Assembly: GCA_946481025.1 (NCBI GenBank)
Contig: CAMLNA010000088.1
Location: 1-18,619, forward strand
Direction of reading: 5' to 3'
DNA from: an uncultured Rivibacter sp.
Lineage (GTDB): Bacteria > Pseudomonadota > Gammaproteobacteria > Burkholderiales > Burkholderiaceae
Length of the DNA: 18,619 bases
Shown: positions 8,868-18,619 of the stretch, one piece after another
How positions within the stretch are numbered: position 1 is the first letter of the stretch
Layout of the letters: every line of letters begins with the position of its first letter
Made by a program: the position numbers and the translations under genes
Notes under the pieces: model-generated
Told to the model about the DNA's origin: nothing
Databases searched by the model: none
The model's input: the letters and a program-made list of their open reading frames with translations, nothing else

Positions 8868-8997
8868 TTCCTGCAGCAGCCGCCGCCCGGCCGATGGCTC
8901 CGCGTCGGTACTAGCCCTCGCTCCACCGCCCCTTGCGCGGCCCCCGCCGCGCCAGGGCGCGCTGGCACGCGGCTGGCAACCCGTTCCTGCAGCAGCC
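8868..8997 (+). repeat. Direct repeat TTCCTGCAGCAGCC flanking the sigma-54 promoter
   Basis: The 14-base sequence TTCCTGCAGCAGCC occurs at 8868-8881 and again at 8984-8997. The first copy is the right arm of an inverted repeat with GCTGCT just before it. The second overlaps the predicted transcription start. Role unknown; in GC-rich DNA this could be chance. Confidence 0.4.
8963..8978 (+). promoter_or_regulatory. Sigma-54 (-24/-12) promoter of the aldehyde dehydrogenase operon
   Basis: TGGCACGCGGCTGGCA matches the sigma-54 consensus TGGCACR-N4-TTGCW with one change (TGGC for TTGC). The obligatory GG (8964-8965) and GC (8976-8977) have exactly ten bases between them. Transcription would start near 8989, about 70 bases before the ATG at 9060. 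The presence of a sigma-54 activator gene in the same cluster supports the call. Confidence 0.7.
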
Positions 8998-9059: not shown

Positions 9060-10580
<1,521 letters not shown>

Positions 10581-10651: not shown

Positions 10652-11026
10652 ATGCCCCCCCAGGTCACCGCCACCGACGCCGCGCTCGCCCTCATCGCCA
10701 CCCTCGCGGCACGCCACGGCCCGCTGATGTTCCACCAGTCGGGCGGCTGCTGCGACGGCAGCGCGCCGATGTGCTACCCCGACGGCGAGTTCAAGGTCGG
10801 CGACGGCGACCGGCTGCTCGGCCACATCGGCGGCATGCCGTTTTTCATCAGCGCCTCGCAATACGAGTACTGGTGCCACACCCAGCTCATCATCGACGTG
10901 GTGCCGGGCCGCGGCGGCATGTTCTCGCTCGAAGGCCCGCTGGGGCAGCGCTTCCTCACCCGCTCACGCCTGTATGGAGACGCCGAGTGGCAGCAGCTGG
11001 TGCGCAGCGGCAAGGTTCAGGGTTAA
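10652..11026 (+). CDS. DUF779 family protein
   Basis: A 124-residue soluble protein with the DUF779 hallmark GGCCDGSAPMCYP (a Cys pair plus a third Cys), then a beta-rich domain ending in the conserved region CHTQLIIDVVPGRGGMFSLEGP and RFLTRSRLY. The family's biochemical role is not established; its genes typically accompany AldB/ExaC-type aldehyde dehydrogenases, as here, 71 bases downstream of the dehydrogenase stop. The start at 10652 is preferred over an in-frame ATG at 10634, because AAGGAA (10637-10642) sits nine bases before it. The three Cys could bind metal, which is inference. Confidence 0.87.
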   Translation: MPPQVTATDAALALIATLAARHGPLMFHQSGGCCDGSAPMCYPDGEFKVGDGDRLLGHIGGMPFFISASQYEYWCHTQLIIDVVPGRGGMFSLEGPLGQRFLTRSRLYGDAEWQQLVRSGKVQG

Positions 11027-11038
11027 CCTCGCCGCCCT

Positions 11039-11052
11039 TTGATATCCCTCAA
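11039..11052. promoter_or_regulatory. FNR/CRP-like box (weak candidate)
   Basis: TTGATATCCCTCAA matches the FNR consensus TTGAT-N4-ATCAA at nine of ten defined positions. It lies just after the DUF779 stop and before the chemotaxis-receptor remnant, with no intact gene immediately downstream on +. It may be left over from a lost gene, or chance. Confidence 0.25.
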
Positions 11053-11067
11053 GTTGGCCGGGCAGCA

Positions 11068-11196
11068 GGCGGCTTCGCGGTGGTGGCCGGCGAAGTGCGG
11101 CAGCTCGCGCGGCGCAGCGCGCAGGCCGCCCGCGAGATCAAGACGCTGATCCAGGCCTCGGTCCAGCGCATCAGCGACGGTGCGCAACTGGTGGAG
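11068..11196 (+). pseudogene. Remnant of a methyl-accepting chemotaxis protein (signalling-domain fragment)
   Basis: About 43 codons read GGFAVVAGEVRQLARRSAQ, then AAREIKTLIQASVQRISDGAQLVE. This is the segment just after the hairpin tip of the MCP cytoplasmic signalling domain (normal form GRGFAVVAGEVRSLAQRS...). Nothing else of the receptor is recognisable: no ligand domain, membrane segments, HAMP or preceding hairpin tip. After GAQLVE the frame drifts into WPAPRPSAF and a stop at 11224-11226. A one-base loss there could explain it, since the next frame reads AGTSTL, plausible for an MCP continuation. It is a degraded fragment, not a functional gene. Confidence 0.75.
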
Positions 11197-11222
11197 TGGC
11201 CGGCACCTCGACCCTCTGCCTT

Positions 11223-13343
11223 CTAGAAACGCAGCGAAGCGTTCACGCCCCCAAGCCACGTCCGCCCCGGCGCCGGCTCGAAATACCGGCCGTTGCTTTC
11301 GTTCACGATCACCGAACCGGCGTAGCGGCGGCCGGTGAGGTTGTCGCCTCGCACGAAGCCGTTGAGCTCCCACGCACCGGCGCGCAGCAGGTAGCCCACG
11401 CTGGCATTCACGATCGCATGGCCCTCGGCCGCATCGGAATTGGTGTCGTTCACCGGCACGCTGCTCAGCCAGCGCGTTTCCATGCCGGCGCGCCAGCCGG
11501 CCTCCGGCATCCAGTTCAAGGCGGCGTACGCATTGCCGCGCGCGAGCCCGGGAATGCGGTTGCCGGCCGGGATGCCGAGGTTGGGCGTGGTGCAGGGCGT
11601 GCCCGAACACACCGCGAAGCCGTCGCGGTAGCGCGCCTCCAGCCAGGTGAACGCGGCCTGCGCCCGCCAGTCGCCGGCCAGCCGCGTTGACCACGACAGC
11701 TCCGCCCCGTGGCGCCGCGTGCGCCCCGCATTGCCGAAGCTCGCACGGCCGCCGCTGTTGCGCTGGGTGACGATCTCGTCCTCGGTGCGGGCATCGAACA
11801 GCGCCAGGTCCACCGCATGCGGCCCCACGCGCAGCTTGGCGCCCAGCTCGACGTTGTCGCTGCGTGCCGGCTTGAGCGCGAAGTTGAGGCCGGCGCTGCC
11901 GTCGCTGCGGTAGGCCAGCTCGTTCATCGTCGGCGTTTCGAAGCCGCGCCCCGCGGCGGCGTACAGGTGCAAGGTGTCGCCGGCCTTGAACATCAGTGCC
12001 AGCACCGGCGTGGTGGCGCTGAACTTCGTCGTGCCGCTGTCGTCGCCGTTGGCGCCGGCAACGTACTGGTCGCGCGAGCGCACGCGGATCGTGCTGTGGC
12101 GCACGCCGGCATCGAGCCGCCAGGCCGCCGAAGGCTGCAGCGTGGCCTGCAGGTACGGGTCCACGCTGGTGATGCGGTTGCGCTCGTCCCGGCGCAGCTC
12201 GCCTTCCACCCCGAGCGTGCTGCCGCTGAAGTTCTGGAAGCCGCGGCGGTGTTCGTCGAGCCGGTCGTAGGCGAGGCCTGCCACCAGCGTGTAGGGCAGC
12301 GCCGCGGCGGTGTCCCGCAGCGTCCAGCGGGCGTCGCTGCCGTGGTAGTCGCGTGCGAGCTGGATCACGCCGCCCGGGTGCAGCGCGCTGCCCTGCGGCC
12401 CGGTGGGAATGGCCTGGAACTGCTGCGTGTGGCGGCTGCCGCCGTAGAGCATGAGCGACAGCGCATGGCGCGCGTCGAGCCGGTGCTCGTAAGTGGTGCC
12501 GAGCTGCGTCTGGTTGAAGTTCTTGCGGGTGTCGAAGCTGGTGGCCGCGGCATCCGCGCCGCGCGGGTCGGCTTCGAACTGCGCCCGCGTGAGCCCCAGC
12601 GGGTCCTGCGCGTTCGGCACCGCCGCGCTGTTGGCCACCACGGTGAGCTTGCCGGCCTCGCCCGTGCGCCAGGTGAGCTTGGCATTGCCCAGGTTGCGCC
12701 GCGCCGCGCTGTGCTCGCGGTAGCCGTCGGTTTCGAAGCGGCTCGCATGCAGCACGTAGCCCAGGCCGTCCTCGCTGCCGGTGAGCCTGGCCGAGAGCCG
12801 GCGCACGGCGTCGCTGCCGGCCGCGGCGCCCAGGTGCAGCATGGGCCGCCCCTGGCCTTCTTCGGTGAAGACCTGAAGCACCCCGCCGGACGAATTGCCG
12901 TAAAGCGCCGAGAACGGCCCGCGCAGCACTTCGATGCGCTCCGCACTGCCCAGGTCGGCGTGCGAGATCTGCCCCTGCCCGTCGGGCAGCGTCGCCGGGA
13001 TGCCGTCGACATACAGCCGCACGCCGCGGATGCCAAAGCTCGCGCGCGCGCCGAAACCGCGGACCGACAGCTGCACGTCCTGCGCATGGTTCTGCCGGTC
13101 GCGCGCCAGGAGGCCCGGCACGCCGCCCACGCTTTCGGAGAGGTTGACCTGCAGGCGGCCCTCGCGAAGGGTGGAGGCCTCGATGCGGCTCACCGAGGCG
13201 GGCACGTCGAAGGCCGGGTCCGCCACCCGTGTGCCGGTGATCACCACCGTCTCGCCCAGGCTCTGGGCCGCCGCCGGCCCGGCCAGCGACGAGGCAGCGG
13301 CCAGCGCCAGCAGCCGTGCCGGGGGAAGATTGCAGCAGGTCAC
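11223..13343 (-). CDS. pqqU: TonB-dependent outer-membrane receptor, YncD/PqqU-like (probable PQQ importer)
   Basis: A 706-residue TonB-dependent receptor: signal peptide (cleavage likely after AAA at about 26), a TonB box-like ETVVITG (31-37), a plug domain (about 40-160), a 22-strand type barrel and a terminal Phe (ASLRF). The start is a GTG at 13343 with GAGG nine bases upstream. It closely resembles E. coli YncD, now named PqqU, the importer of the cofactor pyrroloquinoline quinone. Shared blocks recalled from that protein include NLSES-x-x-GVPGL, RQN-x-AQD-x-QLS-x-RGFG, IRG-x-RLYVDGIPAT-x-PDGQGQ, LRGPFSALYGN, LRRDERN, AAGRGFETPT-x-NEL and the C-terminal SVIVNESNGRY-x-EP. It is the last gene of a unit with a pedF-like cytochrome and a solute-binding protein, starting 17 bases after the latter's stop, which fits a PQQ role. 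Substrate identity is inference; a siderophore or another quinone is less likely. Confidence 0.88.
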   Translation of the reverse strand: MTCCNLPPARLLALAAASSLAGPAAAQSLGETVVITGTRVADPAFDVPASVSRIEASTLREGRLQVNLSESVGGVPGLLARDRQNHAQDVQLSVRGFGARASFGIRGVRLYVDGIPATLPDGQGQISHADLGSAERIEVLRGPFSALYGNSSGGVLQVFTEEGQGRPMLHLGAAAGSDAVRRLSARLTGSEDGLGYVLHASRFETDGYREHSAARRNLGNAKLTWRTGEAGKLTVVANSAAVPNAQDPLGLTRAQFEADPRGADAAATSFDTRKNFNQTQLGTTYEHRLDARHALSLMLYGGSRHTQQFQAIPTGPQGSALHPGGVIQLARDYHGSDARWTLRDTAAALPYTLVAGLAYDRLDEHRRGFQNFSGSTLGVEGELRRDERNRITSVDPYLQATLQPSAAWRLDAGVRHSTIRVRSRDQYVAGANGDDSGTTKFSATTPVLALMFKAGDTLHLYAAAGRGFETPTMNELAYRSDGSAGLNFALKPARSDNVELGAKLRVGPHAVDLALFDARTEDEIVTQRNSGGRASFGNAGRTRRHGAELSWSTRLAGDWRAQAAFTWLEARYRDGFAVCSGTPCTTPNLGIPAGNRIPGLARGNAYAALNWMPEAGWRAGMETRWLSSVPVNDTNSDAAEGHAIVNASVGYLLRAGAWELNGFVRGDNLTGRRYAGSVIVNESNGRYFEPAPGRTWLGGVNASLRF

Positions 13344-13359
13344 ATCGTTCAGCCTCGAA

Positions 13360-14181
13360 TCAAAGCCGCCAGGCTACATCCCGCGCGCGAAAGAGTTCCT
13401 TGAGCCGCCCGCTTGCCTGCAACGACTGCATGGCCTGCTGCAGCGCAGCCGCCAGGTCGGTCGCCTCCTTCTTCACCGCGCAGGCCACCGCCCAGCCGTC
13501 TCGCGGCGCGCGCGGCACGGGCAAGGGCTGCAGCACGAAGCGCGGGTCGCGCGACAGCACCGACTCGAGCTCGGAGGCCAGCCCTGCCACGGCCTCCAGC
13601 TCTCCGGCCTTCAAGGCCTGCGCGGCGGCCACGCCGTCCGGCCAGCGGGTGACGAGGTCGTCGCGCAGCAGGCCTCCTTCGGCGCCGATCATGAGCCAGC
13701 CCGCCAGCGAGAGCCCGGCGGCGCCGACCTTGTGGCCGTGCAGCGCGGCCAGGGAGTCCACCTGCGGCAGGCGGCGGCTGTCGAATGCCAGCACGACCCG
13801 CTCCCGGTAGTAGGGCGCCACCACCTGCACCTGCGGATTGGCCCGTTGCAGCGGCGGGTCCAGCGGCACGTGCAGCAGCACATCGGCCGGGCCCCAGCCG
13901 AGGTAGTGGCCCTTCCACACCACGTTGCGCAGGTCGTCGGCCATGTCCTCGCCGGCCCGGAAGGGCAGCATCGACAAACCCACGCCCAGCTGCTGCGCCA
14001 GGGCGCGGGCGAGCTCCACGTCGATGCCCTGGCCCTGGCTGTGGAAGGGCGGCATGTCGTGGTACAGGCCCACGACGAGGCTGCCGCGGCGGCGAATGCG
14101 ATCGAGTGCGCCTTCTGCCTGCTGGGCCCGCACCAGGCCCGGCGCGGCGGCCAGTGCGGCCAGGAGCTGCCGCCGCTTCAT
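13360..14181 (-). CDS. Periplasmic solute-binding protein (family 3), quinoprotein dehydrogenase-associated type
   Basis: A 273-residue exported protein. The N-terminus MKRRQLLAALAAAPGLVRAQ is a signal peptide with an RR pair that is at best a weak Tat motif. Residues 27-67 show the family-3 binding-protein signature (LDRIRRRGSLVVGLYHDMPPF, then GIDVELARALAQQLGV). The usual ligand Arg and Asp pattern is replaced by GPADVLLHVPLDPP (97-110), which I associate with the proteins found beside PQQ alcohol dehydrogenases (MxaJ/XoxJ-like). These are thought to help maturation or electron transfer rather than import. No permease or ATPase gene is adjacent, which supports that view. It lies 22 bases after the cytochrome stop and 16 bases before the receptor start. 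Confidence 0.8.
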   Translation of the reverse strand: MKRRQLLAALAAAPGLVRAQQAEGALDRIRRRGSLVVGLYHDMPPFHSQGQGIDVELARALAQQLGVGLSMLPFRAGEDMADDLRNVVWKGHYLGWGPADVLLHVPLDPPLQRANPQVQVVAPYYRERVVLAFDSRRLPQVDSLAALHGHKVGAAGLSLAGWLMIGAEGGLLRDDLVTRWPDGVAAAQALKAGELEAVAGLASELESVLSRDPRFVLQPLPVPRAPRDGWAVACAVKKEATDLAAALQQAMQSLQASGRLKELFRARDVAWRL

Positions 14182-14203
14182 TGCGGCCCCCTGCGGCCCG
14201 CGC

Positions 14204-14704
14204 TCATAGCGGCCTCTCGCGGCGCGTCTCGAGGTAGGACTTGATGGCCCACACCGCCTCCTGGCTCAGCGTGCCTTCGAACGGCGGCATGTAGACCGCG
14301 CCGTTGCGCGTGCGGCCCTTGCGCACGGTGGCCAGGAAGAAGTCGTCGTTCTCCTTCACGCAGGCCGCGCGCTTCTTCTCGTCCTTGAGCGCGCCGCACT
14401 CGTTGTCGAGCTTGCGCAGGTCCGGCGCGATGCCGCCCGAGACCGCCTCGATGCCATGGCAGCGCGCGCAGTTCTGGTTGTAGGCCGAGGTGCCGATGCG
14501 CACGGCCTTCTCGTTCTTGCGATAGGGGTTCTCGGCACGCCACTGGTCGCCGAGCTGCGGCAGCTCCTTCGTGTCCACGGCCTGCGGTGTCACATCGCCG
14601 TGTGCCAGCGCCAGGCAGCTCGCGGCCAGCGCGGCCAGCAGCACGGCACCGTTGCGCACGAGGCGCGGGCGGCGATCCTGTGAATGGGAAAACGATCTCG
14701 TCAT
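14204..14704 (-). CDS. pedF: Cytochrome c-550, PedF-like
   Basis: A 166-residue periplasmic class I cytochrome c. The signal peptide spans about 1-35 (cleavage near LALA). The single haem site is C79-A-R-C82-H83, and the axial Met is probably M139 in VYMPPFEG. A second Cys pair (C103, C115) in DNECGALKDEKKRAACVKEND probably forms a disulfide; this insert and the length are features of PedF/ExaB-type c-550, the electron acceptor of PQQ-dependent alcohol dehydrogenases. GGAG lies six bases before the ATG. It is the first gene of the unit transcribed from the sigma-54 promoter at 14750-14765. The dehydrogenase partner is not in the window. Confidence 0.87.
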   Translation of the reverse strand: MTRSFSHSQDRRPRLVRNGAVLLAALAASCLALAHGDVTPQAVDTKELPQLGDQWRAENPYRKNEKAVRIGTSAYNQNCARCHGIEAVSGGIAPDLRKLDNECGALKDEKKRAACVKENDDFFLATVRKGRTRNGAVYMPPFEGTLSQEAVWAIKSYLETRRERPL

Positions 14705-14749
14705 GGCTGTCTCCGGTCGGTCCTCGTCGGGGGTGGTGACGGCCCAGAC

Positions 14750-14765
14750 TGCAAAGCATGTGCCA
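14750..14765 (-). promoter_or_regulatory. Sigma-54 (-24/-12) promoter of the pedF-like operon, perfect consensus
   Basis: Read on the - strand, TGGCACATGCTTTGCA matches TGGCACR-N4-TTGCW at every defined position, with ten bases between the GG and the GC. Transcription would start near 14739, about 35 bases before the ATG at 14704. A chance match of this quality, at the right distance from a start codon and next to a sigma-54 activator gene, is very unlikely. Confidence 0.88.
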
Positions 14766-14944
14766 CGGCGCGCAGGGAGCGAACCGCATGCAAGGCAGTC
14801 GGTGTTATCCCAGGGGCGCCGGCCGGTGCTGAGGCGCAGGTGTCACGGAATGGAGCGTCAGCTTGATGCAAATCAGCTGCGCCACATTCGCACATGCGCG
14901 GCGCATGGATTCGTTCGCGCGTTTGCGGCGTTTGCCCATAGCAT

Positions 14945-14958
14945 CGCTGCCACAGACG
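14945..14958. promoter_or_regulatory. Candidate activator-binding site in the divergent region
   Basis: CGCTGCCACAGACG shares 12 of 14 bases with CGCTGTCACAGCCG at 8847-8860, upstream of the other sigma-54 promoter. It lies about 180 bases upstream of the -24 element of the leftward operon and about 70 bases before the activator ATG, so it could serve both operon activation and autoregulation. Inference only. Confidence 0.3.
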
Positions 14959-15029
14959 AGAGCGCCCGCGGCCACGGCATGCGAGGCGACCGATTGGAGA
15001 CAACCCCGCGCGGGGAAAGGACGATCGCC

Positions 15030-17111
<2,082 letters not shown>

Positions 17112-17146: not shown

Positions 17147-17539
17147 ATGCACGTGAAACGTTGGCCCGCCGGCGGCAGGGGCCGCAGCGCAACCGTGGCT
17201 TACGGCAACCTCGTCTGGACGGTGGCGAACGCCAGCGACCCGGGCGCCGCCTTCGACGAGCAGGTCGCGCAAAGCCTGCAGATGCTGGAGTCCCACCTGC
17301 TTGAAGCGGGTTCGGCCCGCACGCACCTGCTGTCGCTGCAGGTGATCCTCACGGACATCGGCAACAGGCCGGCCTTCGACGAGCAATGGCAGGCGTGGAT
17401 CGGACCGGCGCCGGAGCACTGGCCGCAGCGCGCCTGTTTCGAGTCGGGGCTGGCGCCCGGCCTGCTGGTGGAGCTGGTGGCCGTGGCGGCGCCCGTGAGC
17501 GAGCCCCAGCTCAAGGCCGCCAGCATCCAGCCCGAGTGA
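17147..17539 (+). CDS. RidA/YjgF family protein
   Basis: A 130-residue protein of the RidA (YjgF/YER057c/UK114) superfamily, whose canonical member deaminates reactive enamines and imines. Visible marks are YGNLVWTVANAS near the N-terminus, the helix with QVAQSLQMLESHLLEAGS, LLSLQVILTDI, and the active-site block RACFESGLAPGLLVELVAVA, in which R95 corresponds to the conserved substrate-binding Arg. AAGGGAG is six bases before the ATG. It follows the activator gene by 35 bases on the same strand and may be co-transcribed. It looks like one of the non-archetypal RidA subgroups, so its substrate is unknown; a link to aldehyde or amine by-products is only a guess. Confidence 0.82.
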   Translation: MHVKRWPAGGRGRSATVAYGNLVWTVANASDPGAAFDEQVAQSLQMLESHLLEAGSARTHLLSLQVILTDIGNRPAFDEQWQAWIGPAPEHWPQRACFESGLAPGLLVELVAVAAPVSEPQLKAASIQPE

Positions 17540-17549
17540 GGCCGGGCCG

Positions 17550-18619
17550 TCAACGCCCGAGCAATGCGTCCTTGAAGCCCTGCAGTGCGGGCTTGGGCTT
17601 GAAGTCGGCATCGAACAGCAAGGGCCAGTCGGGCCTGCCGGGCTCGTTGATCCAGCTGTCGGTGTCCCACACGCCCCAGACGGTGATGCCGCCCCGCTGC
17701 GCGGGCGGCACCGCCCGCAGGTAGGCGGCGACGATGTCGTGGTAGCGCTGCTTCTGCCGTTCGGCCGCTTCCGCGGTGAAACTGGCGTAGGCGTTCTTCA
17801 TGCTCACGTCCAGCTCGGTGATCTTCACCTTCAGGCCACGATCGGCCACCGCCTTCAGCGACGATTCGATGGCGTTGATGCTCGGCCAGTCGATCAGCAC
17901 GTGCATCTGGAAGCCCACGCCCGTGAGGGGGACGCTGCGCGACTTCATGCCATCGACCAGCGCCAGCAGGTTGCGCGTCTTCTGTCCGCCGGCCTCGATG
18001 TTGTAGTCGTTGTAGTAGAGGTCGACCTGCGGATCGGCCGCTCGCGCGTTGATGAAGGCCTCGTCGATGAACGCCTGGCCCATCTTCTGGCTGAACACGG
18101 TGCTGCGCAGGCCGCCGCCCAGGGTCGCCTCGCCATCGTCGGCCAGCGCCTCATTCACCACGTCCCAGCTCGCCACCTTGCCGCGGAAGTGGGTGACGAT
18201 GGTCTGGACATGCTGCCTCAGCATGGCGGAGAAGTCGCCGCCGTAGTTCTTCATGAAGGCGGGCACCTGGTAGTCGGCATGCCAGATCAGCGTGTGCGCA
18301 TGCACGCCCATGCCCTTCGAGGCGGCGAACGAAACCAGCGCGTCGGCCTGCCCGAAGGTGAAGCTGTTTTCCGACGGATGCAGGTAGCTCATCTTCATGA
18401 TGTTGCCTGCCGTCAGCTGGTCGAAATTGGGAACCACCACGGCCTGCTGCCGCGCACTGGTGCCGCTGTCGAGGATGCTGTTGTTCTCGAAGCCGGCATT
18501 CACCGCCACGCCGATCGGGAAGCTCGCCAGCGACTTCAGCCCTTGTGCTGCAGGGTCGCTGGGGGGCGTTGGCGTTGGCGTTGGCGTTGGCGTTGGCGTT
18601 GGCGTTGGCGTTGGCGTTG
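17550..18619 (-). CDS. Glycoside hydrolase family 10 endo-1,4-beta-xylanase, 5' end outside window
   Basis: A secreted xylanase running off the right edge. The visible protein starts with a (Thr-Pro)n linker (18564-18617), then PPSDPAAQGLKSLASFPIG and the GH10 catalytic domain. Family landmarks are MKMSYLHPSENSFTF, GVHAHTLIWHADYQVPAF, SWDVVNEAL with the acid/base Glu (codon 18150-18152), VGFQMHVLIDWPS, and ITELDVSM with the nucleophile Glu (codon 17814-17816), then WGVWDTDSW. Both catalytic Glu are present. The Thr-Pro linker implies another domain or signal region upstream, such as a carbohydrate-binding module, outside the window. The gene is convergent with the RidA-family gene, with ten bases between the stops. 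Substrate (xylan) is inferred from family. Confidence 0.9.
   Translation of the reverse strand, partial: TPTPTPTPTPTPTPTPTPPSDPAAQGLKSLASFPIGVAVNAGFENNSILDSGTSARQQAVVVPNFDQLTAGNIMKMSYLHPSENSFTFGQADALVSFAASKGMGVHAHTLIWHADYQVPAFMKNYGGDFSAMLRQHVQTIVTHFRGKVASWDVVNEALADDGEATLGGGLRSTVFSQKMGQAFIDEAFINARAADPQVDLYYNDYNIEAGGQKTRNLLALVDGMKSRSVPLTGVGFQMHVLIDWPSINAIESSLKAVADRGLKVKITELDVSMKNAYASFTAEAAERQKQRYHDIVAAYLRAVPPAQRGGITVWGVWDTDSWINEPGRPDWPLLFDADFKPKPALQGFKDALLGR
18565..18619. repeat. (GGCGTT)n hexanucleotide tandem repeat encoding a Thr-Pro linker
   Basis: Nine perfect GGCGTT units fill 18565-18618, and the array continues past the window edge. Read on the - strand in the xylanase frame they give alternating ACG and CCA, i.e. 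Thr-Pro repeats. The units show no sequence drift, which suggests recent expansion or active slippage. Because the unit is six bases, changes in copy number would keep the reading frame. Confidence 0.95.

Follow-up and report, generated by a model that had tools for sequence, protein, structure and literature searches.

PqqU (YncD) of Escherichia coli is the TonB-dependent outer membrane importer of pyrroloquinoline quinone (PQQ) (Munder et al. 2025, PMC12124388). Of the PqqU carriers surveyed in that study, 67% have a PQQ dehydrogenase, the remainder being left open, and 23% have pqq genes; four Burkholderiales are listed in which pqqU adjoins the pqq operon. In the Pseudomonas ped cluster, as covered in the relevant passages of a review (PMC12997753), pedF and pedG occur with genes for PQQ alcohol dehydrogenases and an aldehyde dehydrogenase, while a figure on the xoxF3 regions of Acidobacteria and Gemmatimonadetes (PMC10875860) draws a TonB receptor gene near a PQQ dehydrogenase gene together with XoxG and XoxJ. 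Here, we analyzed an 18,619-nucleotide stretch of DNA from an uncultured Rivibacter sp. (contig CAMLNA010000088.1; from here on, the window) in which a pqqU-type gene follows pedF and pedG. The locus shares with E. coli PqqU the receptor family, the PQQ-contacting residues and predicted PQQ import; with the ped cluster, the pedF-pedG pair and its association with PQQ alcohol and aldehyde oxidation; and with the xoxF3 regions, a TonB receptor gene near a PQQ dehydrogenase. We consider it likely that these genes form an operon that is under sigma-54 control and serves alcohol oxidation in the periplasm, and in which alcohol-induced uptake or recapture of PQQ is matched to the demand of the enzyme.

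Results

A pqqU-type gene is closely packed with pedF and pedG

On the minus strand at 11223-14704, the window contains pedF (14204..14704), pedG (13360..14181) and a TonB-dependent receptor gene (11223..13343), all codirectional and separated by gaps of only 22 and 16 bp. A preliminary description of this DNA had noted these three tightly packed genes and a PedF-like cytochrome c-550, and both statements hold: PedF, a periplasmic cytochrome c-550 that serves as electron acceptor of PQQ alcohol dehydrogenase, has a CARCH heme motif and matches TIGR04494 with 207.8 bits (cut-off, 122). The arrangement suggests that the three genes are cotranscribed.

By its residue contacts and its clade, the predicted receptor is PqqU. 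Its score against the NCBIfam PqqU model NF041535 was 792 bits, with the next family at 158, and among solved structures its best matches were two YncD/PqqU chains, 6v81 with 657 bits and another with 654, whereas no further chain exceeded 40; thus, a better fit to a siderophore or vitamin receptor clade was not found. The alignment to E. coli YncD, which extends through receptor residue 624, contains 290 identities in 589 positions. PMC12124388 gives 12 PQQ contacts, of which we used the 11 that can be named from its text; one of these is printed once as N447E, and because E. coli has W at that position, we took the contact to be N477. All 11 mapped contacts are conserved: Q84, Q121, K274, R304, Q308, Q310, R365, N477, Y481 and R536 of 6v81 are identical in the window receptor, and Y99 is replaced by F, which is accepted in the published definition of PqqU (PMC12124388). 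The Y/F/W99-R304-R365 signature of that definition is present as F103, R304 and R366. Because the receptor did not reach the cut-off of NF041535, its assignment follows the published residue definition and not the family model.

In a tree, the receptor falls in a fully supported set of 21 rows together with E. coli PqqU. The signature is present in all 128 long relatives of a larger tree set, which excludes matches shorter than 600 residues or scoring below 300 bits as well as the loci of the later PqqU search (up to 13 scored candidates per genome), and is absent from an unrelated TonB receptor. In a set of 112 rows, only two lack it, namely a fragment without part of the sites (locus L034) and an unrelated receptor in L018. 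These findings bear on the alternative that the receptor imports another ligand, such as a siderophore, a lanthanide chelate or an alcohol, and merely resembles PqqU. Only about half of its residues match E. coli YncD, the family cut-off is missed, and TonB receptors easily change ligand. Nevertheless, with every mapped contact kept, the next family far behind, a common clade with E. coli PqqU, and pqqU recurrently linked to genes for PQQ enzymes and PQQ synthesis (see below), we regard this alternative as very improbable.

We note two variations among related loci. First, the PqqU relatives in L152 (genome G083) and L177 (G028) carry E at K274, a change proposed to allow metal co-binding (PMC12124388). 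Second, L018, L020, L062-L064, L066 and L070 encode an additional TonB receptor (23-29% identity to PqqU) close to the activator gene, pedF or the dehydrogenase gene; this receptor, whose copy in L018 lacks the PQQ signature, is possibly a lanthanide receptor.

The pedG product belongs to the periplasmic binding proteins (SBP_bac_3). The corresponding passage of the ped-cluster review (PMC12997753) regards PedG as structurally related to MxaJ and XoxJ and gives it a proposed role in helping cofactor insertion. The MxaJ/XoxJ likeness stated in the preliminary description stands with respect to position and may stand with respect to fold, but not to sequence family: PedG scored 21.2 bits against the MxaJ-type model TIGR03871 (cut-off, 212), while its structure model superimposed on MxaJ/XoxJ with a root mean square deviation of 2.8 (5sv6) and 3.0 (6onp), with Z scores tying with those of many other proteins, and neither structure was among the 50 matches that Foldseek listed by E-value. 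Because these Z scores are no better than those to amino-acid binding proteins, we only infer, following the review, that PedG may function in maturation or cofactor loading.

The operon recurs in relatives near PQQ alcohol dehydrogenase genes

An initial scan with the receptor yielded 34 loci, and in one of them, L001, the gene order is that of the window. We drew 250 genomes from the order and 299 from the family of the L001 genome, using collections other than those for plasmids, phages, E. coli, viruses and metagenomes. PedF was present in 18 of the 250 order genomes and 76 of the 299 family genomes, and the pedF regions of all 76 PedF genomes were inspected (two each in G311 and G485). 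Synteny was assigned by tblastn with the window proteins plus the dehydrogenase from L024 (TIGR03075 confirmed in G264). The exact order of a divergent activator gene followed by pedF-pedG-pqqU was found in 10 of the 76 PedF genomes (10 of the 98 loci compared overall), namely G001, G231, G313, G413, G402, G294, G468, G390, G443 and G278. This count is a lower bound because contig ends interrupt some pedF regions, e.g., in L192, L197, L218 and L254. A further 12 PedF genomes have the two genes pqqU and pedF no more than 10 kb apart but arranged differently. All ten exact-order genomes have a PQQ alcohol dehydrogenase gene within ~20 kb of pedF, as identified by the family model in G001 and G231 and by tblastn in the other eight, and pqqU also lies beside a dehydrogenase gene in other betaproteobacteria, e.g., G264, G265, G266 and G011. 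The idea of a scavenge-and-use module in the preliminary description is thus borne out by the recurrence of the operon near PQQ alcohol dehydrogenase genes, but not, as a rule, in its restriction to bacteria that do not make PQQ, as four of the ten genomes have pqqE.

Most pedF loci, close ones included, lack pqqU at this position, as would be expected if pqqU were a chance neighbor under its own control outside the pedF transcript. Given the 16-bp gap, the shared strand, and an identical order that recurs with receptors from three places in the tree, we find this explanation improbable. Partial pqqU-like matches were also observed near pedF, as two separate pieces in L248 (G530) and as one piece in L253 (G320; 10.5-kb contig); G530 and G320 have neither pqqE nor a full PqqU match.

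Within the window, the dehydrogenase query gave no match at E 1e-20, in agreement with the preliminary description, and no pqq genes were noticed among the scanned open reading frames, although no search was aimed at them. The closest genome found, G325, has 90% DNA identity to positions 13360-17111 (3.8 kb) and 94% to positions 17537-18559, and the contig that carries its pedF also has a dehydrogenase gene ~15 kb upstream of it. Because of this position, the corresponding gene in the source genome should lie roughly 11 kb past the right end of the window, and the source organism probably encodes its PQQ alcohol dehydrogenase nearby.

A sigma-54 promoter motif and a divergent activator gene precede pedF

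A sigma-54 -24/-12 motif (TGGCAC-N5-TTGC) is located upstream of pedF on the minus strand (14751..14765). It matches in all 10 letters, is the only perfect site in the window on either strand, and had no perfect counterpart in 200 single-letter shuffles of the 320 upstream bases on one strand, in line with the sigma-54 operon postulated in the preliminary description. The divergent gene at 15030..17111 on the plus strand encodes a sigma-54 activator of 693 amino acids, counted from the ATG at 15030, with a GAF domain, an AAA domain with the GAFTGA motif (PF00158) and a Fis-type helix-turn-helix (PF02954), and this protein is the probable regulator of the operon. It may resemble BmoR.

An activator homologue is divergent from pedF in 71 of 98 loci. 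Across these 71 loci, the best sigma-54 site matched in 10 of 10 letters in 33 and in 9 in 29, compared with a single 10/10 site in 1,420 single-letter shuffles; among the ten exact-order relatives, four had a 10/10 site, five a 9/10 site and one an 8/10 site. Based on these counts, sigma-54 control looks general for such loci in the group. Positions 14879..14892 (no strand assigned) share 13 of 14 letters with the upstream region of L001 in the same orientation, and we list this stretch as a lead to a candidate activator-binding site. A comparison of the pedF and exaC upstream regions for shared enhancer motifs gave only short, mainly GC-rich matches.

The pedF-pedG-pqqU combination seems to have been assembled repeatedly

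The receptors of the window and its ten exact-order relatives occupy three places in the receptor tree: one contains the window receptor and the first seven or eight rows, another contains G313 and G413, and G231 stands apart from both. To explain the gene-order label on this tree takes no fewer than three changes, even if only well-supported branches are counted, and a tree forcing the eleven operon receptors into one clade was rejected by the approximately unbiased test (p-AU 7.5e-77). The window receptor and its seven nearest operon receptors are joined with a support of 0.947 in the 128-relative tree and form no resolved grouping in the tree used for the clade test. By these sequence comparisons, the combination seems to have been assembled more than once in related bacteria. 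A single old operon in which the receptor was later replaced would fit too, and either way, the combination has been kept or remade.

Two loci, L194 and L241, have empty sites, in which only 43 bp separate the matches to the small partner protein of exaC and to pedG. At the same place, the window has a 196-bp segment (11027-11222) and then pqqU. This segment, read on the plus strand in frame 3 as GGFAVVAGEVRQLARRSAQAAREIKTLIQASVQRI, is a remnant that appears similar to the signaling domain of a methyl-accepting chemotaxis protein.

The placement of pqqU tracks the absence of pqqE

Among the 250 order genomes, all 46 with pqqE also had a dehydrogenase match, and PqqU was present in 12 of the 13 genomes with dehydrogenase but without pqqE compared with 26 of the 46 with both (p 0.02). 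In these searches, at most the best 4 first-look candidates per order genome and 13 per PedF-family genome were scored, so that PqqU may have been missed in some genomes. As a marker confined to non-makers, PqqU failed among the PedF genomes, being present in 20 of 23 without pqqE and 42 of 53 with it (p 0.53).

Among the 62 PedF genomes with PqqU, pqqE was absent from 18 of the 30 in which pqqU lies within 30 kb of pedF and from 2 of the 32 others (p 6e-6). The 30-kb limit gave the strongest result of five distances; the association had the same direction and was weaker at the other four (p 0.018, 0.0015, 0.0005 and 2.8e-5 at 2, 10, 15 and 50 kb, respectively). Thus, the placement of pqqU, and not its presence, separates makers from non-makers among the PedF genomes. 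This test includes kinship between genomes; independent pairs on a tree of PedF and the activator gave 2.7 for and 0.0 against among 5 supported pairs of PqqU genomes, the same direction but short of significance (median p 0.25) with the few supported pairs available (5 to 7). Poor assembly would be expected to weaken the linkage result because linked genes need good contigs. As to gene absence itself, pqqE and pqqC agree in 33 of the 35 genomes searched for both, and absence is uncertain because a number of the genomes are drafts or were assembled from metagenomes, with no stated completeness.

For the exact operon, the survey suggested by the preliminary description gave a mixed outcome: pqqE is missing from 6 of the 10 exact-operon genomes and from 17 of the 66 others, but this difference is short of significance (p 0.058), and G313, G413, G443 and G278 keep pqqE. 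In G001 and G231, which contain the exact operon together with the dehydrogenase, neither pqqE nor pqqC is present. Five of the seven operon receptors nearest to that of the window in the 128-relative tree come from genomes without pqqE. Finally, of the 26 order genomes with both pqqU and pqqE, 13 have the two genes no more than 15 kb apart, compared with the four Burkholderiales for which such synteny has been reported (PMC12124388).

These data speak to two accounts of what the importer does in the source organism. If that organism makes PQQ, the operonic PqqU would only retrieve cofactor that leaks through the outer membrane. The four exact-operon genomes with pqqE, the presence of pqqE in the closest genome and the proximity of pqqU to pqqE in half of the order genomes with both favor this account, while the six exact-operon genomes without pqqE, the predominance of such genomes among the nearest receptors and the linkage counts argue against it; overall, we give it a little less than an even chance. 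If, alternatively, the organism does not synthesize PQQ and its enzyme depends on import, the linkage counts and the gene content of G001 and G231 would be explained. However, G325, so similar over the locus, has pqqE, the supported phylogenetic pairs are too few for significance, the association with the exact operon is short of it, and absence from unfinished assemblies is uncertain, and we hold this second account to be plausible but again below even, slightly more so than the first. The chance that the organism of the window makes PQQ is near even, and the scavenging reading in the preliminary description is supported only in part, by the linkage of pqqU to pedF in genomes without pqqE but not by the exact-operon genomes and G325 with pqqE.

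Neighboring genes

Downstream of the operon on the plus strand, exaC (9060..10580) encodes an NAD (nicotinamide adenine dinucleotide)-dependent acetaldehyde dehydrogenase (NF050026, 974 bits; cut-off, 900) for the next step in ethanol oxidation, and is preceded by a probable sigma-54 site (8963..8977, plus strand); no other site on either strand of the window matches in 9 of 10 letters. It is followed by a gene for a small partner protein (10652..11026, plus strand), a homologue of which adjoins exaC in L194, L241, L185, L077 and L082; presumably, this protein is of the DUF779 type. Downstream of the activator gene, a Rid-like gene at 17147-17539 scored 21.8 bits against TIGR00004, below the cut-off of 106. 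It is missing from L197, because the flanking matches there are only 16 bp apart.

Discussion

Our data are consistent with the following scheme. The divergent activator, which by its gene position may be an alcohol sensor, would respond to an alcohol-related signal and jointly induce pedF, pedG and pqqU. PqqU would draw PQQ across the outer membrane, energized by TonB; PedG would assist the maturation of the apo-dehydrogenase or its receipt of the cofactor; PedF would accept the electrons; and ExaC would oxidize the aldehyde in the cytoplasm. The importer could take up PQQ that other organisms produce or recover PQQ that the cell itself has made and lost by leakage. Because it is encoded inside the operon, cofactor supply would rise with enzyme demand.

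Several observations weigh against this scheme. The 792 bits of the receptor lie below the NF041535 cut-off of 1200, a score that none of the 250 order genomes reached and that, among 14 controls, only E. coli reached. The genome-level evidence comes from the genomes of relatives and not from that of the source organism, and the closest of these, G325, has pqqE and no PqqU match (best 13 of 26 first-look candidates scored); in its locus L197, the 423 bp between pedG and the contig end hold repeats in place of pqqU. The promoter match in L182 is only 8/10, and the 9/10 match in L185 lacks the GC of the -12 element. PqqU also occurs in 38 of the 191 order genomes without a strong match to PQQ alcohol dehydrogenase, and is therefore not tied to this enzyme alone. 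Separately, we observed that the segment following pedG in L197 (positions 1-423) consists of long imperfect direct and inverted repeats.

More tentatively, the move of pqqU into an alcohol-induced ped cluster may mark, and perhaps permit, the loss of PQQ synthesis, such that the place of pqqU would predict make-or-buy in these Burkholderiales-type bacteria, and this pressure would have led to the assembly of the importer-acceptor operon on three or more occasions. We think this idea possible, though at present more doubtful than not.

By placing a cofactor importer under common control with parts of a particular enzyme system, the probable operon makes the physiological partner of PqqU in these bacteria directly testable. 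We suggest that it may help to recognize, from genomes, communities that share PQQ and whose alcohol oxidizers may in some cases depend on the PQQ of their neighbors, and that it may act as an alcohol-inducible switch for cofactor uptake.

The components of this locus are known, and for their combination in one operon we found no description. Specifically, a combination of pqqU with pedF was not found in our searches of the PubMed Central literature, which is no proof of absence as subscription papers and preprints are mostly outside its scope. In the Pseudomonas ped cluster, the passage of the review on TonB transport concerns the lanthanide receptor LutH and not PqqU, and the passages on regulation name PP_2663, PedS1, YiaY/PP_2683, AgmR and PedS2-PedR2, with sigma-54 mentioned in connection with CbrB (PMC12997753). 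The xoxF3 regions are from other phyla and involve another enzyme, and the figure legend names no substrate for the receptor (PMC10875860). Finally, the colocalization search for pqqU pairs it with pqqA-F, and in the sections concerned we found no linkage to pedF or a dehydrogenase gene (PMC12124388), whereas in the locus described here, pqqU is part of the pedF-pedG operon.

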